Source: a virus | DNA length: 64,000 bases | Strand: one strand, 5' to 3' | Virus record (IMG/VR): IMGVR_UViG_3300008117_000032 | Coordinates: 1 to 64,000 of that record | Shown here: piece by piece, positions 12,116-41,938 of the stretch | Layout: every line of letters starts with the position of its first letter | Numbering within the stretch: position 1 is the stretch's first letter | The notes under the pieces: model-generated | Databases searched by the model: none | What the model saw: the letters and a program-made list of their open reading frames with translations, nothing else | What the model was told of the DNA's origin: nothing | Made by a program: the position numbers and the translations under genes

Positions 12116-14740
12116 ATGGGTGATATTTTAATAGTTCCGAGTAATTCCATTTCTAGAACACCAGACAGAGTCCCTTATATAAATTGGGTTAACAGTGGAA
12201 CAAGTGTTTGGAGAGTTGTGCCAACGGGTAAGATTAATCTTAGCTCAGCATCAGTTACTAATCAATTAGTTATTGACCGTTCTAGCCAAACAATTGGTGT
12301 TGTAACGCTTAATGTTTCTGATTATTTTGCTATTGACTCAGTTCAAGTAATTGATGGAACTTTGGATTGGATTGGACCAACCACAGGTATTGCAGGAGCT
12401 CAAGGGGCTCAGGGTCACCAAGGTGCGCAGGGCAATACAGGTGCACAGGGTGATACGGGTGCACAGGGAAATTTGGGTGCACAAGGGTTACAAGGAATAC
12501 AAGGTGCACAAGGTGATACAGGTGCACAAGGTCAGGTTGGACCCCAAGGGGCACAGGGTGCTAAAGGCACAACCCAGGGTGCACAGGGTAATACAGGTGC
12601 ACAAGGAGCCACGGGAAATACCGGTGCACAAGGAAATACAGGTGCACAGGGTAATACAGGTGCACAAGGAGCCACAGGTAACACAGGAGCGCAAGGTAAC
12701 ACGGGAGCTCAAGGAAATGTTGGACCACAAGGGGCCACAGGTAATACAGGAGCACAAGGAAATACAGGTGCACAGGGTCATACAGGTGCTCAAGGAGCTA
12801 CAGGTAACACAGGAGCACAAGGTAATACAGGAGCACAAGGAAATGTTGGTCCACAAGGGGCCACAGGTAATACAGGAGCACAAGGTAATACAGGAGCACA
12901 AGGAAATGTTGGACCACAAGGGGCCACAGGTAACACAGGGGCTCAGGGAGCTACCGGGGCTACAGGTAACGTAGGACCACAAGGAGCCACAGGTAACACA
13001 GGAGCACAAGGTAATACAGGAGCACAAGGAAATGTTGGCCCACAAGGAGCCACAGGTAATACAGGTGCACAAGGACCTACAGGTTCTACAGGTGCAGTAG
13101 GACCTCAAGGTGCTACAGGTCCTCAAGGGGCTCAAGGACCACAAGGTGCGACGGGTCATGCTGGTGCTCAGGGTGCTACAGGACCACAAGGAGCACAGGG
13201 ACCAACAGGAAATACAGGTCATCCAGGTGCACAAGGTGCTACGGGGAATGCTGGTTCTACTGGGGCACAAGGTGCGACGGGTCATGCGGGTGCTCAAGGT
13301 GCTACAGGACCACAAGGTGCACAGGGGCCAACAGGAAACACAGGTCACCCTGGTGCTCAAGGTGCTACAGGTAATGCAGGTTCGACGGGTGCTCAAGGAG
13401 CCACAGGACATCCAGGAGCTCAAGGAGCAACAGGACCAACAGGACCTCAAGGTGCTCAAGGTGCCGTTGGTCATACAGGAGCACAAGGAGCCACAGGACC
13501 ACAAGGTCCAACAGGTTCGGGTGGAGGAACAGGACATCCAGGAGCACAAGGAGCCACAGGACCACAAGGTCCTCAAGGTTCAGGTGGAGGAACAGGACAT
13601 CCAGGAGCACAGGGAGCCACAGGACCACAAGGTCCAACAGGTTCTGGTGGAGGAACAGGACATCCAGGAGCACAAGGTGCCACAGGACCACAAGGTGCAC
13701 AAGGTGCAGGGGGTAATACAGGTGCAATTGGTCCTCAGGGAGCAACAGGTGCTCAGGGTTCACAGGGTGGTAAGGGTGCTACAGGTCATCCAGGTGCACA
13801 AGGAGCAACAGGAAATCAAGGTGCTCAAGGTGCTCCAGGACCACAAGGTGGAACAGGAGGTCAGGGTGCTCAAGGTGCTCAAGGTCCTCAAGGTGGTGGG
13901 GGTGCTACGGGTAGCCAAGGGGCGCAAGGAGCTGCTGGACCGAAAGGTCCAAACGGAGGTCAAGGTGCTCAAGGTGCACCAGGTGTAACAGGACCTCAAG
14001 GTAACCAAGGTGCACAAGGACCAGGTGGTCCTACTGGTCCTACGGGTAACCAAGGTGCACAAGGGTCGGGTGGTCCTACGGGTCCTACGGGTCCTACGGG
14101 AGGACAAGGAGCCCAAGGTGCACAAGGTGCAACAGGACCTGGCTCGTTCACCTCTTGTTTTGTTCAGAATCTATGTGGTGATTCTTATTACGCCATTTGT
14201 GTAAACGCGGGGGCATGTCAAAACAGAACAGTTTATTCCCAAGATATTAACTGGCAAGCAAATTTTAGCATCCAACTCGCTTCAGATGTTACAACTTGTC
14301 AAAACTCAACATTTCAGTGGACCTATGGTTCAATTACGATTGGTGTTACATATTTGTATTATGGTTCTACTAACTTCAATGGTTATTTTACATACGGGGG
14401 CAGCTGCTCTGATAGAAGAGTCAAATATAATGTTAAATCACTTGATAATACACTTGAAAAAATTCTTGAACTTAGAGTCGTAGAATACGATTGGAATGAA
14501 AAGTTGACGAAAAGCGATTACATTAAAAGATTAAACAATAACAAGCTTCACTCGATTGGTCTGATAGCTCAAAATGTTAAAGAATTTTTCCCGACAGTAG
14601 TTAAAATCGGTTCTGATGGTTTTTATACTGTTGAATATAATAGAATGAACGCCGTTTTGATTGAAGGTATTAAAGAGCAACAAGTATTTATATCAGATAT
14701 CGAAAAACAAATAAATGAACTTGAAAACCTTCTTAATTAA
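12116..14740 (+). CDS. Collagen-like tail fibre 1 with S74 chaperone domain
   Basis: An 874 aa virion fibre. Residues 1-90 form a small beta-rich attachment domain. About residues 92-690 are Gly-X-Y triplets, dominated by GAQ, GAT, GNT and GPQ, expected to form a collagen triple helix. A Cys-containing beta domain follows ([20 protein letters not shown] region). From residue 765 a Peptidase_S74 intramolecular chaperone begins ([12 protein letters not shown] ... [12 protein letters not shown]) with a C-terminal coiled coil. S74 domains trimerise the fibre and are usually released by self-cleavage at the Ser before Asp. Stop and next start share one base. Confidence 0.93.
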
Positions 14741-32474: not shown

Positions 32475-32894
32475 ATGAAACAACAAAGCTATGTAGGAAT
32501 TATGGTAAAATGTAAGGATAAAGTTTTACTATGTAAAAGAAACAATCTCGGTTCTTTCCCAGGTATGTGGTCGATTCCAGGTGGAAAACTCGAAGAAAAT
32601 GAAACAACACAAGAAGGTGCCAAACGCGAATTTTTCGAAGAAACAGCGGTTAGTATCGATGACCAAGAAATTACTTTTATTGGACTCATTCCAAGACACA
32701 CTCGTGACGGTAAAAAAGTTAAAGGGTTGATGTATGTGTATTTGTTAATTGTTGAAGAATGTATTGAACCAGATTTCGAGAAAGCCATTGACGGAGAAGA
32801 ACATACTGATTGGAAGTATTTCAGTTTCGATGAAATCCGTGCTGAAAACACAGGTGACTATATGTATAAATTAGCTGAAATTATTTTACAATGA
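32475..32894 (+). CDS. Nudix hydrolase
   Basis: A 139 aa protein with the full Nudix box GGKLEENETTQEGAKREFFEE at about 34-54 (G-x5-E-x7-REuxEE). Size and context fit small MutT-type enzymes that hydrolyse nucleoside diphosphate derivatives such as oxidised dNTPs or NDP-sugars; substrate not predictable. Next gene starts in its stop. Confidence 0.93.
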   Translation: MKQQSYVGIMVKCKDKVLLCKRNNLGSFPGMWSIPGGKLEENETTQEGAKREFFEETAVSIDDQEITFIGLIPRHTRDGKKVKGLMYVYLLIVEECIEPDFEKAIDGEEHTDWKYFSFDEIRAENTGDYMYKLAEIILQ

Positions 32895-32995
32895 TTGTAT
32901 TAGGTTTAATTATGTTTGTCATCGTTATAGGAATCATAGGATGGTTCGATATGATGAGACAACTCAGAAGAATGGTTGACGATTTGGACCACTAA
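32891..32995 (+). CDS. 34-aa membrane microprotein
   Basis: ATGA overlap with the Nudix stop. One hydrophobic helix (MIVLGLIMFVIVIGIIGW) and a charged tail RQLRRMVDDLDH. Translationally coupled; function unknown. Confidence 0.5.
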   Translation: MIVLGLIMFVIVIGIIGWFDMMRQLRRMVDDLDH

Positions 32996-33039
32996 AAAAA
33001 AATATTTTTTCTTAGGGTTACTTTTTGAACTTTTCGGAA

Positions 33040-33047
33040 TATTTATA
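33040..33047 (+). promoter_or_regulatory. TATTTATA motif at head of the RNA region
   Basis: Perfect TATTTATA with no open frame downstream; would start transcription near 33055-33060 into a non-coding segment. Confidence 0.4.
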
Positions 33048-33048
33048 T

Positions 33049-33110
33049 GTTCATGTCCGAGAGGACGAACACCCCAAACACTCGAGATGAATAAAAGAGT
33101 AATCTCGAAA
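33049..33110 (+). ncRNA. Possible structured 5' RNA element
   Basis: A hairpin (GTTC/GAAC and GTCC/GGAC around a GAGA tetraloop, 33049-33070) followed by a second stem (TCGAGAT with ATCTCGA, about 33084-33110). No coding sequence. Either an independent short RNA or the leader of the tRNA/RNA transcript. Confidence 0.35.
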
Positions 33111-33125
33111 TAATAGTCCCACGAA

Positions 33126-33157
33126 TTTGGTTATTTGAGAAAATCTCCGTATATTTG
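33126..33157 (+). promoter_or_regulatory. Bacteroidota-type promoter for the tRNA-like region
   Basis: TTTG (33126-33129), 20 bases, TATATTTG (33150-33157). No start codon of a real gene follows; downstream are the structured element and tRNA-like gene. Confidence 0.75.
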
Positions 33158-33200
33158 TGGGACTTCTTTTTCAAAACAACATAGTTCTTAAAAATATTGA

Positions 33201-33274
33201 AATGATGACTCCTGCTGGTTCAACCAGCGCATGACGTGGATAGGTGACCGAGGGGTAAGTAGGAGTTAATCATT
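33201..33274 (+). ncRNA. Structured RNA element, closed by a 12-bp stem
   Basis: AATGAT and ACTCCT (33201-33213) pair with AGGAGT and ATCATT (33261-33274). Inside, GCTGGT/ACCAGC forms a 6 bp hairpin at 33214-33228 and GGTGACC-like bases suggest a second small hairpin, giving a multi-branch fold. It is immediately 5' of the tRNA-like gene and may be an RNA of its own or a processing signal. No known family recognised. Confidence 0.5.
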
Positions 33275-33277
33275 ATA

Positions 33278-33352
33278 TTGCGGGCGGGGGGCAAGGTGTT
33301 CCATGGGTCTCATAAGCCCACTTAGCTTGGTTCGATTCCAAGGCGACGCAAC
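33278..33352 (+). tRNA. tRNA-Met(CAT)-like gene with irregular acceptor stem
   Basis: Anticodon arm 33304-33320: 5 bp stem around loop CTCATAA, anticodon CAT at 33311-33313 with T before and A after. Variable loop CTTAG. T arm 33326-33342: CTTGG, TTCGATT, CCAAG, fully canonical. A D stem of four G with TTCC fits. The acceptor pairs poorly: TTGCG (33278-33282) pairs with CGCAA (33347-33351), but the inner part is mismatched, and no CCA is encoded. It could be a diverged tRNA, one with unusual processing, or a tRNA mimic. Confidence 0.6.
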
Positions 33353-33362
33353 AAAAAAAAGA

Positions 33363-33394
33363 TTTGAGAGTTTAAAAAAACCTTCTTATCTTTG
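33363..33394 (+). promoter_or_regulatory. Bacteroidota-type promoter, second in RNA region
   Basis: TTTG (33363-33366), 20 bases, TATCTTTG (33387-33394). Perfect consensus, no protein gene follows. Confidence 0.78.
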
Positions 33395-33399
33395 TAAAA

Positions 33400-33510
33400 C
33401 ACACGATGAGAGTCGTATGTTCTTTGACAAAGACTGAATTTGAACCTGTCCCATTAAGAGTGGGGGGTATTAGAATCGAATCAGAAAAAGTCAAAAAAAG
33501 TTTCAAAAAG
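33400..33510 (+). ncRNA. Possible short leader RNA between promoters
   Basis: Between the second and third promoters. Small hairpins are visible (ACGA/TCGT at 33404-33417; CCCATTAAGAGTGGG near 33451-33465) and a boxA-like site at 33419. No open frame and no clear terminator, so it may simply be the upstream leader of the large RNA. Confidence 0.35.
33419..33427 (+). promoter_or_regulatory. boxA-like site GTTCTTTGA
   Basis: GTTCTTTGA matches the boxA antitermination core of rRNA operon leaders in many bacteria. It lies about 25 bases after the second promoter, the position expected in an rRNA-like leader. Confidence 0.5.
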
Positions 33511-33511
33511 A

Positions 33512-33543
33512 TTTGACAGTTCCAAAAACGTGTCTTAACTTTG
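33512..33543 (+). promoter_or_regulatory. Bacteroidota-type promoter for the large RNA
   Basis: TTTG (33512-33515), 20 bases, TAACTTTG (33536-33543). Start expected near 33550. Confidence 0.75.
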
Positions 33544-33623
33544 TGAAACAATTGAAGGGGAGGAGTTGTAAGTGTTCCAACTTCGGATGGTCGTCAAGAT
33601 TCTTCTTCCCTTTAAATTTGAAA

Positions 33624-33632
33624 GTTCTTTGA
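33624..33632 (+). promoter_or_regulatory. boxA-like site in large RNA
   Basis: Second GTTCTTTGA, about 75 bases into the large RNA; same core as at 33419. Confidence 0.45.
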
Positions 33633-34513
33633 ATTAAGATATTATCTTCACAGTTAGTTGATGATGAAACCTTCGGGTTTATTCTGAGACATTCTGTTCA
33701 AGATATTGGCCGCCTATGGTCATTAAATAAACTATGAAAATAGTATAAAGTGGAACTCCCTGGTTTGGGAGGTCTGCGGTTTCCGAAAGGGAACTCGAGT
33801 AGGCAATCAGGATATTATCTGACCTTTAGTACTGAGGGTGACACTGTAGGGAACGTGGTTGGGTAATCAAGCGATACGGGTCGTTTGATTGAGGTGGGAA
33901 CACCAATAAGAATAACCTGAAGGATTAATGTAAGAAACTATGGCATCCACCATAGTAATTGCGTGATTCAATATTAGAGTTGGCTTAACACCGAACAAGG
34001 TAAGTTTCATAACAGGTGGTGCTGATGGAACCTTAACTTTCTCTCTACCAAGAGGTTAGTTATGAAGTTGACTCAAAATATGGAGGTCGGGAGACTTCAG
34101 AGAGTAGCTTAGTATCGTGTCGTCCAAAAGATGGCATGGCTTCAGACGGGCCGCTACTTTCATCATCCGTAAACCAACTTTGTTAATTAAGGTTTAACAA
34201 ACTCAAAATTAAACAAGGAAAAGTGCTCGTCAGTTGTGTGCGACAGGTCACTACATAGTTAAGAGATGTTCTTAGCCTTGAAGGGTCCCAAGCCCGACAG
34301 GATTTTCTTGAAAGTTCTCTAATCCCGCAAGGATTAATTGGGGTGGCAACCTCGAAGAGTGATGAGTAACGAGAGAGTGGTACACAACTTAAGGATTGGT
34401 TAATCTAATTGACCGTGACTGAGGATTACTTCTCAAAAGGAAGTGGAAACGAAGGGAAATCATAATCCTTCCAAAGATTCTCACCAAAACTTGTATTCTC
34501 AGAGTTTTTTGCC

Positions 34514-34546
34514 AACCCCGTCAGTTTCTACTGGTGGGGTTTTTTG
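34514..34546 (+). terminator. Terminator of the large RNA
   Basis: AACCCC pairs with GGGGTT, with inner CAG/CTG, followed by TTTTTTG and another T run. It lies between the RNA and the convergent minus-strand gene. Confidence 0.82.
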
Positions 34547-34551
34547 TTTTT

Positions 34552-36687
34552 TTAACAACCGTAGCTATCAGTTATTGAACCATTCGTTGCGATTCTATAC
34601 CAATCGGAGGAACCTAAAGTGTTGTTGGTATAATACAAGTCATTACCATTGTATGGTGTTGTTAGGTTTGAATCTGAATAAAATTTGGTAATTGTATACC
34701 AACTTGATTCTGCGGCATATAAGGTCTGAGTTAAAACAACAGGATTACAATCTATCGATACAAAAGTTTGTCCTGAGGTAACTGAATAAGGGTAAAATAC
34801 AAATGATTGCGTAGGTGTTTGAGATGGTGTTACAGACTGTGTAACTGTTGGTTCTGTTTGTGTTGGTGTAGGAGTTTGAGTTACAGAGGCCGTCGGAGTC
34901 TGTGTAAGCGTTGGTGTAGGTGAGTTGGTAGTTGTTGGTGAGTTAGTTGGTGTACTAGTAGTTGTTGGAGTTGGAGTATTAGAAGCGGTCAATGTTGGTG
35001 TGTTAGTAGTTGTTGGAGTTGGAGTATTAGAGGCTGTCAATGTTGGTGTGGGTGTCGGACACGCACAAGGTGAATTATAATACAAATTATTGAACTCACC
35101 TGAAATAACAGTTACTGAACCATATTCTATACAACCCTCGGGTGCACCCCAAGAATCAACACCAGCTTCAACGCTCAGGATATTTACTTCTCCACTACAA
35201 CAATCTGTGTAACTGAAAAAAGTTTCAGTTAATGTTACATCGAAATAAATTTTTTGATAACAATCGGCAAGTCTCGTTTGTGTTGGTGTAGGAGTAAGTG
35301 TGCCTGTGACTGTCGGACTGGTTGTTGGTGTTGGTGTAGAGGTCGAGGTCGATGTAGGAGTTAATGTAGGAGTTGAGGTCAATGTAGGGGTTAGAGATGG
35401 TGTCGTGGTCGGTGTTGGTGTTGAGGTCGGGTTTATTGTAGGAGTTGGGGATGGTGTTGGACAAAGTCCCTGACAACACTCACAACTATCGAAACATTCT
35501 AAAACATCATTCGAATTCACGACAACCGAAGGGCTTACATTATCAAAACATTGAGGAACTCCCCCACATTCAGTATGAGGTGCCTCATCACAATAACCGT
35601 AAATTACAGAACAACTGTCGGTTAAATTTGGATTCGACGAACGGAAATATCTCAAGAAAGATGGGTCCCCACATAGAAGAGCTGAATAATAGTAAACAGG
35701 AGGGGTCTGTGTAGGTGTTTGAGTGTTGGTAGGTGTTTGAGTGTTGGTAGGTGTTTGAGTGTTAGTTGGCGTTGGAGTCGGGGTAGAGGTGTTGGTAGGT
35801 GTTTGAGTGTTAGTTGGCGTTGGAGTTTGTGTAGAAGTATTTGTTGGTGTTTGAGTGTTGGTTGGTGTTTGTGTAACGGTCGATGTTGGAGTTGGGGTAG
35901 TGCAGTTGGTTATGTTTCCTGGAGGAGATTTCAATACCATCCAAACATCTTGAGCGAAGGGAATTTGGGATGGTTCAAATAAATAAATCGAAATACCATC
36001 TATAGAACAACCAGAAAATAATAAGTCCCAAATTCTAGGTATTGAATTGATGTTACAAGGGTCCTCTCCAGGTCCGAAACAGGTTTCAGGGTAAATAATG
36101 TAATAGTAATTCAATCTATTGTCAGATAAGTCCCTCACTCTATATTGGATAGCCAAAGAAGGAGAAGAGATATAAACAGTTCCTGCTAAGTTATAATTGG
36201 GACACTCACCAACTTGAAAATTCGTTACTAAATTTGTCCAAGGAATACCGTTGAACACTGTTGGGTCGATGTAAGGAGGATTGTATGTTGCAATTCTATA
36301 ATCTATATTAACGTTGGGTGGTAAGGCATATTCACTTGAAATTCTTAAAGTGACTGGAAACGGATATGGGTATTCATATACATAACAAGATTCGGTGTTG
36401 ACATTCACAACATCCCCCAAAGAATATGTCTGTATCATGTTTAATATATCTCCGTCATCTTGACTAACTAAATTCTCAGAAAAGTAATTTGGAATTTGTA
36501 TTGATGATGGAACAGCCCAAATCCTTTTGGATTGTTGAGGTAGTATTTCGTCTTGGTAAACCCACTGAAAATTCGAACTCTTCTGATAATTTATTGTTAT
36601 GACAGAGTCAGTAGGATTGGAAAAAGAAATTTTCTCAGTTTTTTTTACAATTCTTTGTTGACCAATAATTATAACGGGATTTGACAT
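34552..36687 (-). CDS. Thr/Pro-rich repeat virion-type protein
   Basis: A 711 aa protein; start ATG 36687 (MSNPVIIIGQQRIVKK) lies 5 bases after a minus-strand TATTTATC, whereas the in-frame ATG at 36714 precedes it. Residues 1-270 form beta-rich globular domains, followed by three mucin-like linkers of TPTxT/TQTPT repeats alternating with small Cys-containing modules (CCQGLCPTP, CCSGEVNIL regions). Similar T/P-linked proteins in large phages are probably surface decoration or adhesion proteins (inference). Converges with the large RNA. Confidence 0.78.
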   Translation of the reverse strand: MSNPVIIIGQQRIVKKTEKISFSNPTDSVITINYQKSSNFQWVYQDEILPQQSKRIWAVPSSIQIPNYFSENLVSQDDGDILNMIQTYSLGDVVNVNTESCYVYEYPYPFPVTLRISSEYALPPNVNIDYRIATYNPPYIDPTVFNGIPWTNLVTNFQVGECPNYNLAGTVYISSPSLAIQYRVRDLSDNRLNYYYIIYPETCFGPGEDPCNINSIPRIWDLLFSGCSIDGISIYLFEPSQIPFAQDVWMVLKSPPGNITNCTTPTPTSTVTQTPTNTQTPTNTSTQTPTPTNTQTPTNTSTPTPTPTNTQTPTNTQTPTNTQTPTQTPPVYYYSALLCGDPSFLRYFRSSNPNLTDSCSVIYGYCDEAPHTECGGVPQCFDNVSPSVVVNSNDVLECFDSCECCQGLCPTPSPTPTINPTSTPTPTTTPSLTPTLTSTPTLTPTSTSTSTPTPTTSPTVTGTLTPTPTQTRLADCYQKIYFDVTLTETFFSYTDCCSGEVNILSVEAGVDSWGAPEGCIEYGSVTVISGEFNNLYYNSPCACPTPTPTLTASNTPTPTTTNTPTLTASNTPTPTTTSTPTNSPTTTNSPTPTLTQTPTASVTQTPTPTQTEPTVTQSVTPSQTPTQSFVFYPYSVTSGQTFVSIDCNPVVLTQTLYAAESSWYTITKFYSDSNLTTPYNGNDLYYTNNTLGSSDWYRIATNGSITDSYGC
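34830..35900 (-). repeat. Thr/Pro-coding low-complexity repeats
   Basis: Three blocks (about 34830-35060, 35275-35460, 35700-35905) of short repeats coding (T/S)PT and TQTPTN units, separated by unique Cys-containing modules. Confidence 0.7.
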
Positions 36688-40467: not shown

Positions 40468-40694
40468 TGTGGGAAATATATGGATATATCGGGAGCGTCC
40501 TCATTTTAGGTTCATTCCTAATTGAGGACGTTTTCCGTCTTAGAGCGGTCAACACGGTTGGCGCAATTTTTTGGTTAGTTTATGGATTCGGAATTTCGGC
40601 AGGTCCGACAATTGTTGTAAATTCGTGCGTTATCATCATTCACTCCTATTGGTTTTACAAACACAGAAAAGAATGGACATCAAAGAAAAAATAA
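40464..40694 (+). CDS. YgjV-like small membrane protein
   Basis: A 76 aa protein with three hydrophobic segments and the pattern GSVLILGSFLIEDVFRLRAVN, then VGAIFWLVYGFGIS and CVIIIHSYWFYK, resembling the YgjV inner-membrane family. ATGATG start overlaps the preceding stop. Role unknown. Confidence 0.65.
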   Translation: MMWEIYGYIGSVLILGSFLIEDVFRLRAVNTVGAIFWLVYGFGISAGPTIVVNSCVIIIHSYWFYKHRKEWTSKKK

Positions 40695-41938
40695 AATCAG
40701 CTCCCAAATACCCTGGTTGTTACATCTACAAAGATGGCAAAGACCAGGTAATATATGTGGGGATGTCCAAGTTCCTTCCCAAACGTGTTGCGTCTTATTT
40801 CAATAAGAAACACGATGACAAGAAGACAAGGACCCTTGTTGAACAAATACGTGACGTTGAGTATCAGATTGCTTCATCTGAGGCTGAGGCTCTCATCATG
40901 GAGGAAGAACTCATCAAAATTTACAAACCCAAGTTCAACATCAAAGGTAAAGATGATAAGTCAAGAACTTGGCATTTGTCTTTGACTGGTGGACCATACT
41001 CCAAACTTCAAATAACTCATGGGAAAGGTGAGGACACCTGTGGAATCAACTTCACCTCAGGTCAAAGGGCGTATGAAGTTATGGAACTTATCAACGACAT
41101 CCTTCCACTTAGAACTTGTTCCTATACTTTGAATCAAGAAAACATCGGGGCAGGTAAATTCAAACCATGTCTTGAGTATCATATTGGTCGTTGTAACGCA
41201 CCCTGCATTGCCTTGGAATCGAACCTTGAATATCTGAAGTATCAATTAATTGTTCGAAAGATATTCGAACTTGATTATAAGATGTTAAAGGTGTTTCTCA
41301 CAGGAAAAATGCATGAGTTTGCCAAGAACTTGGAGTTCGAAAAGGCGGACAACTACCTCAACAGGGTTAATCAAATCAAAAAACTTGAAGAGAAACTCGA
41401 ACCCATCCGTGTAAGGAAATATAACAAGATTGCCTTTGGTATAAAAAAGGTTTTGGGTCTTAAAAATCTTCCTTTGATTATCGAGGCGTTTGACAACTCA
41501 CACAATCAGGGTGACTCAAATGTTGCGGCCTCTGTAAGATATGTGAATAACAAACCTCTCAAGAGTGAATACCGTAAGTATATCATTCGTGAGGAGTCAA
41601 ACAATGGTAATGATTGTCTGTCATTCGAGGAAGTGGTTTACAGACGTTTTAAGAGACTCTTGGATGAAAAGGGTCAACTACCTGACCTTGTTCTAATTGA
41701 TGGGGGAATTGGTCAATTAAACGTTGCAAAGAAGGTATTTGAGTCTCTTGGACTTACCAACAGGATTGATTTGATATCAATTTCGAAAGACCAAAAACAC
41801 AGGTCACAGACCGTTCATACAACTGATGGTAAACAACATCCAATGGATTGGTCCGTTCTCGGAGTTATTCAAGAAGAGGTTCACAGGTTTGCAATAAAGT
41901 TTCATAGAGAAAGAGCAGGAAAAAAACTTTTGGCATAA
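40673..41938 (+). CDS. uvrC: UvrC-like excision nuclease subunit, shortened
   Basis: A 421 aa protein; start ATG 40673 overlaps the previous gene. GIY-YIG nuclease domain at about 12-100 (YPGCYIYKDGK, VIYVGMSKFLPKRVASY), a UVR motif near 213-235 (EFAKNLEFEKADNYL) and the RNase H-like second nuclease domain from about 270 (IEAFDNSHNQGDSNVAASV ... LVLIDGGIGQLNVA). Bacterial UvrC is about 600 aa; here the C-terminal helix-hairpin-helix DNA-binding domain is absent and the inter-domain region is short. It may work with host UvrAB or damage host DNA. UvrA and UvrB are not in the window. Confidence 0.9.
   Translation: MDIKEKIKSAPKYPGCYIYKDGKDQVIYVGMSKFLPKRVASYFNKKHDDKKTRTLVEQIRDVEYQIASSEAEALIMEEELIKIYKPKFNIKGKDDKSRTWHLSLTGGPYSKLQITHGKGEDTCGINFTSGQRAYEVMELINDILPLRTCSYTLNQENIGAGKFKPCLEYHIGRCNAPCIALESNLEYLKYQLIVRKIFELDYKMLKVFLTGKMHEFAKNLEFEKADNYLNRVNQIKKLEEKLEPIRVRKYNKIAFGIKKVLGLKNLPLIIEAFDNSHNQGDSNVAASVRYVNNKPLKSEYRKYIIREESNNGNDCLSFEEVVYRRFKRLLDEKGQLPDLVLIDGGIGQLNVAKKVFESLGLTNRIDLISISKDQKHRSQTVHTTDGKQHPMDWSVLGVIQEEVHRFAIKFHRERAGKKLLA

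Follow-up and report, generated by a model that had tools for sequence, protein, structure and literature searches.

The structured RNA encoded at 33550-34546 of the window, by which we mean the whole stretch of 64,000 nucleotides that was analyzed, is on the evidence of its sequence the GOLLD RNA of a large lake Bacteroidota phage. Our preferred reading, to which we assign a probability of roughly 70%, is that this GOLLD constitutes a unit of its own (33512-34541), which would be transcribed with rRNA-type boxA antitermination and whose product would assemble into a cage. The window belongs to an IMG/VR virus record of 181,846 bases (G000), and the same GOLLD locus is present in virus records of 317 and 321 kb, two contigs of 321 kb carrying it in identical form.

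The 3' domain matches the Rfam model RF02032 over its entire length (table 1). The initial annotation had seen in this RNA a possibly diverged relative of GOLLD or ROOL; the GOLLD relationship was right, and "diverged" is too weak a description because the score of the 3' domain exceeds the gathering cut-off of 150 bits by more than a factor of two. When the region was compared with the Rfam models, as had been suggested, GOLLD was matched, and ROOL, OLE, HEARO, tmRNA, and RNase P are absent among the six matches in 32800-34700 at E values up to 1. ROOL is, according to PMC12286853, likewise a large, ornate phage RNA often near tRNAs and also cage-forming. The 997 nucleotides of 33550-34546 fold with -300.7 kcal/mol (z = -5.2; 0 of 20 shuffles as stable), in agreement with the many stable hairpins noticed at the outset.

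The gene-free stretch reported around the RNA was confirmed and found to be longer than claimed: It spans approximately 32996 to 34551, beginning after a 34-aa open reading frame (ORF), and contains further RNA units. The single ORF of at least 60 aa within 32894-34552, an 82-aa GTG ORF at 34443-34691, overlaps the 3' end of GOLLD and the terminator and is taken to be spurious. The 34-aa membrane-like ORF (32891-32995) overlaps the stop of a Nudix gene; it is likely a small phage gene, as diverged relatives occur in many GOLLD loci.

Table 1.— Features of the GOLLD unit and of the RNA units upstream of it; positions are those of the window.
Feature	Position	Strand	Basis
First upstream promoter, for RNA A and the tRNA-like sequence	33126-33157	+	Exact pattern match
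RNA A: conserved hairpin with variable complementary outer stem	33206-33268	+	Core pattern, alignment A2, fold
Degenerate tRNA-CAT-like sequence	33280-33352	+	Likeness to phage tRNA-Met
Second upstream promoter, before RNA B	33363-33394	+	Exact pattern match
boxA of RNA B, GTTCTTTGA	33419-33427	+	Pattern match
RNA B, conserved hairpin core	33445-33467	+	31 viral-contig stretches; hairpin in fold of 19 sequences
Bacteroidota-type promoter of the GOLLD transcript, TTTG-N20-TAACTTTG	33512-33543	+	Exact pattern match
Leader hairpin immediately preceding boxA, in a boxB-like position	33552-33615	+	MFE and centroid fold
boxA-like element, GTTCTTTGA	33624-33632	+	Between promoter and GOLLD RNA
GOLLD 5' domain, outside the Rfam model	33694-34099	+	58-sequence alignment A3, covariation
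Cross-domain helix, 5' side: 5'-domain hairpin loop ACGGGT	33876-33881	+	Pairs with 34165-34170
GOLLD 3' domain, Rfam RF02032	34100-34505	+	322.1 bits, E 1.9e-91, model 1-416 of 416
Cross-domain helix, 3' side: ATCCGT, joining segment after Rfam outer stem	34165-34170	+	Covariation
Intrinsic terminator	34514-34541	+	12-pair hairpin, then T run

Promoter, boxA leader, and terminator

The highly structured RNA lies between a promoter and a terminator of its own, as had been proposed. The promoter matches exactly a pattern that we take to be the Bacteroidota consensus, and its reading as a host-type promoter is strengthened by counts: The window contains 11 matches against a mean of 2.3 and a maximum of 7 in 100 dinucleotide shuffles, and three of the 11 fall within the 418 bases directly upstream of the GOLLD RNA. 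For the terminator, described beforehand as strong, the hairpin and T tract are present, but the motif is weak when taken alone because 1.5 occurrences are expected by chance in the scanned 1.9 kb, where one was found; it begins, however, 9 bases past the last GOLLD position, 34505.

Between promoter and RNA we found a leader hairpin, which stops 8 nt short of the nine-base element GTTCTTTGA. The names boxA and boxB are applied here to leader motifs in the window and its relatives on our own assumption that they correspond. To interrogate the distribution of boxA, at least 143 matching GOLLD loci were reduced to 119 whose 5' end was complete and whose upstream sequence was long enough, and to 75 leaders after removal of duplicates; a leader was scored positive if GTTCTTT(G/A)A occurred no more than 130 nt before the GOLLD start. 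Of these 75 leaders, 71 have the motif, among them that of the window (dinucleotide shuffles: mean 0.55, largest 5), as do 49 of 52 after clustering (shuffle mean 0.32). Across the whole window the motif is not clearly enriched, with seven occurrences against 3.5 expected and seven of 100 shuffles reaching the same number.

The 71 leaders with boxA were clustered to 43, a promoter with a looser -33 box lying upstream of boxA in 39 of them. A perfect stem of at least five pairs ending no more than 8 nt before boxA was found in 20 of the 43 (mononucleotide shuffles: mean 2.2, largest 5), and the remaining 23 are without such a hairpin.

It should be noted that boxA does not belong to GOLLD in general, because six GOLLD loci from phages outside the Bacteroidota setting, of Streptococcus (two), Acinetobacter, Mycobacterium, and roseobacters (two), show no boxA within the 900 nt that precede the 3' domain; the motif as a universal GOLLD feature was rejected on these grounds. 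Of two huge phages, one (L276) has boxA, and the other (L277) only TCTTTGA inside a stretch judged tRNA-like by eye.

The same motif is found before the rRNA genes of the presumed hosts. Among 61 genomes, 23 gave a 16S match, and with one more genome added, 18 Bacteroidota genomes had a recognized 16S start and at least 250 nt upstream. In 13 of these 18 the exact boxA lies no more than 250 nt ahead of 16S (shuffles: mean 0.14, largest 1), in five it is missing, and a looser motif is found in 16 (shuffle mean 0.33). The order of promoter, hairpin, and GTTCTTTGA was seen by eye in the rRNA leader of the Flavobacteriales locus L279. The GOLLD leader therefore looks like a host rRNA leader of the boxB-boxA-boxC type, sharing with it promoter, hairpin, the identical nine-base motif, and a long structured RNA; it differs in that its product is a phage RNA and not rRNA.

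Other promoter-like sites in the phage loci served as controls, and 13 of 258 have boxA within 150 nt. Ten of these 13 end 20-41 nt before an Rfam tmRNA, one precedes a tRNA-Leu array, one a tRNA-like sequence recognized by eye, and one has no assignment; among the 245 control sites without boxA, 17 are followed by a tRNA or tmRNA no more than 300 nt away, including the tmRNA of L043. Most tmRNA genes seen in these phages are preceded by boxA, that of L009 not being among those with both promoter and boxA. The phage studied here has a tmRNA of its own (161079-161474, minus strand of the 181,846-base record), with a promoter and GTTCTTTGA in its leader.

These observations bear on what the element may do. 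It could act without Nus-dependent antitermination, either in the processing or stabilization of the RNA or by belonging to a longer promoter or start region used for stable RNAs, an explanation we hold to be unlikely while giving it serious weight. It would account for the often short distance from promoter to boxA (median 28 nt), and a processing signal could equally sit in the 20-41 nt between promoter end and tmRNA start; tmRNA and tRNA are, moreover, short and hardly require antitermination. Against it speak the occurrence of the motif before host 16S genes, the hairpin that precedes boxA in nearly half of the clustered leaders, and the distance from boxA to the GOLLD start, which ranges from 9 to 119 nt and suits a tethering site more than a fixed cleavage site. 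A further argument for antitermination comes from Escherichia coli, in whose rRNA leaders NusB-S10 binds boxA; PMC10250234 calls the element necessary and sufficient for the antitermination complex.

Far less probable is that the leader motif was merely inherited, GOLLD units sharing descent and carrying a boxA without function. The relatives are all homologous, and the 75 include many close ones, as their reduction to 52 indicates; yet the bases flanking boxA are less conserved than the motif (in a logo of 34 leaders with full flanks, which is conditioned on the motif so that the motif columns are fixed), its distance is variable, and the same motif stands before unrelated tmRNA genes and host rRNA.

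The 5' domain and a cross-domain helix

The Rfam model covers only the 3' domain, and the 5' half of the RNA can be aligned with 57 relatives. The resulting alignment A3, with 58 sequences including the window's own, was drawn from the loci of the 75 dereplicated leaders, near-identical and 3'-incomplete ones being dropped. RNAalifold predicted 194 pairs on A3, 132 of them with compensatory changes. The 5' domain accounts for 97 predicted pairs (96 scorable), in which 96.8% of cells are paired and 68 pairs show double changes; control versions with the 3' partner slid by one to three columns gave 35-41% and 20-29 pairs, a comparison that favors the unslid version because the structure was derived from A3, although A3 itself was not fitted to the structure. 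A separate, less conserved 5' domain upstream of the 3' domain, as known for GOLLD, is thus indicated by 68 of 97 pairs against 20-29. We conclude from this covariation that the 5' domain is a structured part of GOLLD. Covariation among homologues, for which a check had been advised, was seen in both domains. We give practically no weight to a new class of large phage RNA, an idea of the initial annotation that could draw on the missing Rfam model for the 5' half, since it is refuted by the full-length match to RF02032 with 322 bits, and the 5' half, found in every one of the 58 aligned sequences, shows covariation with the 3' half.

Scanning all column pairs of A3 for covarying helices beyond the predicted fold recovered the Rfam model's outer stem (34100-34108 with 34153-34161), lower-scoring alternatives, and one helix between the two domains. 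This predicted helix consists of six pairs between a hairpin loop of the 5' domain and the joining segment that follows the outer stem (table 1). Of its cells, 99.7% are paired, against 32-45% in slid versions, and it shows 17 double changes; none of 500 shuffles, which ignore relatedness, matches either value. The number of pair types, eight, is not exceptional (shuffles: mean 6.2, largest 9). Five different sequences occur on the 3' side, and each is complemented by the loop. The helix is also retained in the two huge phages, which lie outside A3, as GTAGAT or GTAGGT with ATCTAC. A simple search of the six non-Bacteroidota GOLLDs returned scattered candidate six-mers in some of them and no clear equivalent.

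The covariation fits pairing within one chain as well as between chains and cannot tell the two apart. The GOLLD cage is described in the text of PMC12286853 as a homo-14-mer held by intermolecular bridges B1-B10, which include self-kissing L21 loops and the kissing bridge B7 between L20 and J13/15, assigned there to 3' regions. The GOLLD of the window resembles env-38, the subject of that cryo-EM study, as far as env-38 is known here from its description: Both have the full 3' domain (RF02032), a length above 800 nt, a phage location, and two domains of which the 5' one is less conserved. Env-38 is described as lying downstream of a Met-tRNA, and a tRNA-Met-like sequence lies upstream of the present GOLLD. 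The differences from env-38 as described in that text are the boxA leader with a Bacteroidota promoter and the covarying helix from a 5'-domain loop to the segment after the 3'-domain outer stem, which may be B7 or a further contact. The helix is a structural prediction that can be checked in the next cage structure from this clade.

Upstream small RNAs and phage setting

Two small RNAs precede the GOLLD unit, and neither reaches the cut-off of any Rfam family. RNA A is a hairpin of approximately 40-70 nt with a nearly invariant core, which lies next to tRNA genes or between them in numerous phage tRNA arrays (e.g., L190, L195, L199, L218, L229, L230, and L260). A search of viral contigs with its core pattern gave 94 stretches, two or more of them by chance; 54 copies had full flanks, and removing L204 and L248, whose matches were judged fortuitous, left 52 distinct copies. 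A tRNA gene is no more than 200 nt away from 42 of these, and 31 have a tRNA-CAT whose start follows the core by 30-44 nt. The inner hairpin contains a covarying pair (CG in 18, AU in 14, and UA in one). The outer stem varies in sequence and stays complementary, an appearance that is favored because the best complementary stretch was picked for each copy. By eye, only a weaker boxA-like sequence, GTTCTTAAA, was seen with RNA A (33184-33192). Under strict filters and with no positive control, no RNA A was found in 198 Bacteroidota genomes. RNA A may serve as a processing element; alternatively, it may be a new small RNA of phages.

RNA B (33395-33500; also in L177, L183, L018, L189, and others) has a promoter of its own, a leader hairpin, boxA, and the core CCTGTCCYATTANGAGTRGGGGG, with boxA present in 18 of 19 distinct leaders. 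A further conserved block at 33003-33100, also present in L023 and L143, contains a promoter-like TATTTATATG, a GTTC..GAAC hairpin, and CACCCC; identity to L143 over 32996-33078 is 90%.

The neighboring tRNA-like gene of the initial annotation is a real sequence, in that 33279-33339 has 82% identity to the tRNA-Met of Aeromonas phage 1233; as a gene it fared less well, since neither ARAGORN nor Rfam calls it and only three of seven acceptor-stem pairs form by eye (four of seven in L023). It may reflect the decay of a tRNA, or it may be a tRNA-like element that serves some other purpose. This degenerate sequence is the only tRNA neighbor of GOLLD in the window itself, and 24 tRNAs over the cut-off are found elsewhere in the same phage. 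In 36 of the 75 dereplicated loci, ARAGORN calls a tRNA no farther than 1.5 kb from GOLLD, and in 35 of them the anticodon is CAT.

GOLLD and tmRNA lie within approximately 4 kb of each other in 13 contigs (L009, L012, L020, L026, L040, L042, L045, L048, L085, L093, L118, L043, and L008), 11 of which were examined because of a control site with boxA. Two roseobacter phages, DSS3_MAL1 and MD18, have a tRNA-Arg within their GOLLD match (L274 2070-2533 and L275 2066-2533), and a tmRNA that also matches the permuted tmRNA model follows closely.

Our first GOLLD pattern gave no matches in viral contigs, and a pattern from the better conserved 3' part gave at least 118 stretches in IMG/VR. An Rfam scan of 16 such loci (L008, L043, L119, and 13 others, the latter picked for carrying a control site with boxA) returned GOLLD above the cut-off in all 16, and Rfam also confirmed GOLLD in phages of Acinetobacter, Mycobacterium, Streptococcus, and roseobacters and in the two huge phages. 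A neighboring gene of 718 aa was compared in 50 of 56 loci; only 12 of these 50 records sharing the gene have a GOLLD match, and many are short fragments. In bacterial genomes a strict GOLLD pattern found nothing, and a looser one found four stretches, none of them GOLLD by Rfam; both were exact-pattern scans, from which it does not follow that host chromosomes lack GOLLD.

Two proteins encoded elsewhere in the window may be mentioned for its phage setting: a UvrC-like repair nuclease with GIY-YIG and UvrC RNase H domains (40571-41935), and a collagen-repeat protein with a C-terminal S74 chaperone peptidase (12116-14737), likely a tail fiber.

A proposed route from leader to cage

We propose that host RNA polymerase initiates at the GOLLD promoter, and that leader hairpin and boxA would then recruit an rRNA-type complex, with host NusB-S10(NusE) binding boxA on the nascent RNA. 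This complex would carry the polymerase through approximately 1 kb of structured, untranslated RNA without Rho-dependent termination, and may also aid the folding of GOLLD. Transcription would run to the terminator at 34541, the RNA folding while it emerges, and the GOLLD copies would self-assemble into a cage. Nus-factor action and antitermination are inferred here by analogy with rRNA leaders, and cage formation by analogy with another GOLLD, for which it was seen in vitro (PMC12286853). For one Lactobacillus brevis prophage, PMC7567579 states that phage production did not require GOLLD.

GOLLD itself is a known class, and the leader type and the long-range helix are additions to it. In open-access literature we found no description of a GOLLD boxA leader or of a covarying long-range helix, and none of the open-access GOLLD literature found names boxA. 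Nor did we find, in the available portions of the GOLLD literature, an account of how the phage transcribes an untranslated RNA of approximately 1 kb without premature termination. The boxA leader points to a way in which the phage could produce so long an RNA and makes the question of GOLLD transcription directly testable. The company of GOLLD, namely tRNA-CAT, tRNA arrays, and tmRNA, favors a role tied to translation or ribosomes, and boxA, by linking GOLLD to the kind of leader used for rRNA and tmRNA, narrows the guesses to ribosome and translation biology.

Beyond this locus, large Bacteroidota phages might copy the rRNA-operon program of their hosts, with GOLLD, tmRNA, some tRNA units, and small hairpin RNAs all starting with a host promoter and boxA, and with the NusB-S10 machinery making them and helping to fold them; we offer this only tentatively and rate it at somewhat under even odds. 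If true, the elongation complex on which GOLLD cages assemble would be one taken over from ribosome synthesis, a clade-specific helix would lock the cap to the ring of the cage, and the phage might slow host rRNA synthesis by drawing the antitermination machinery away.
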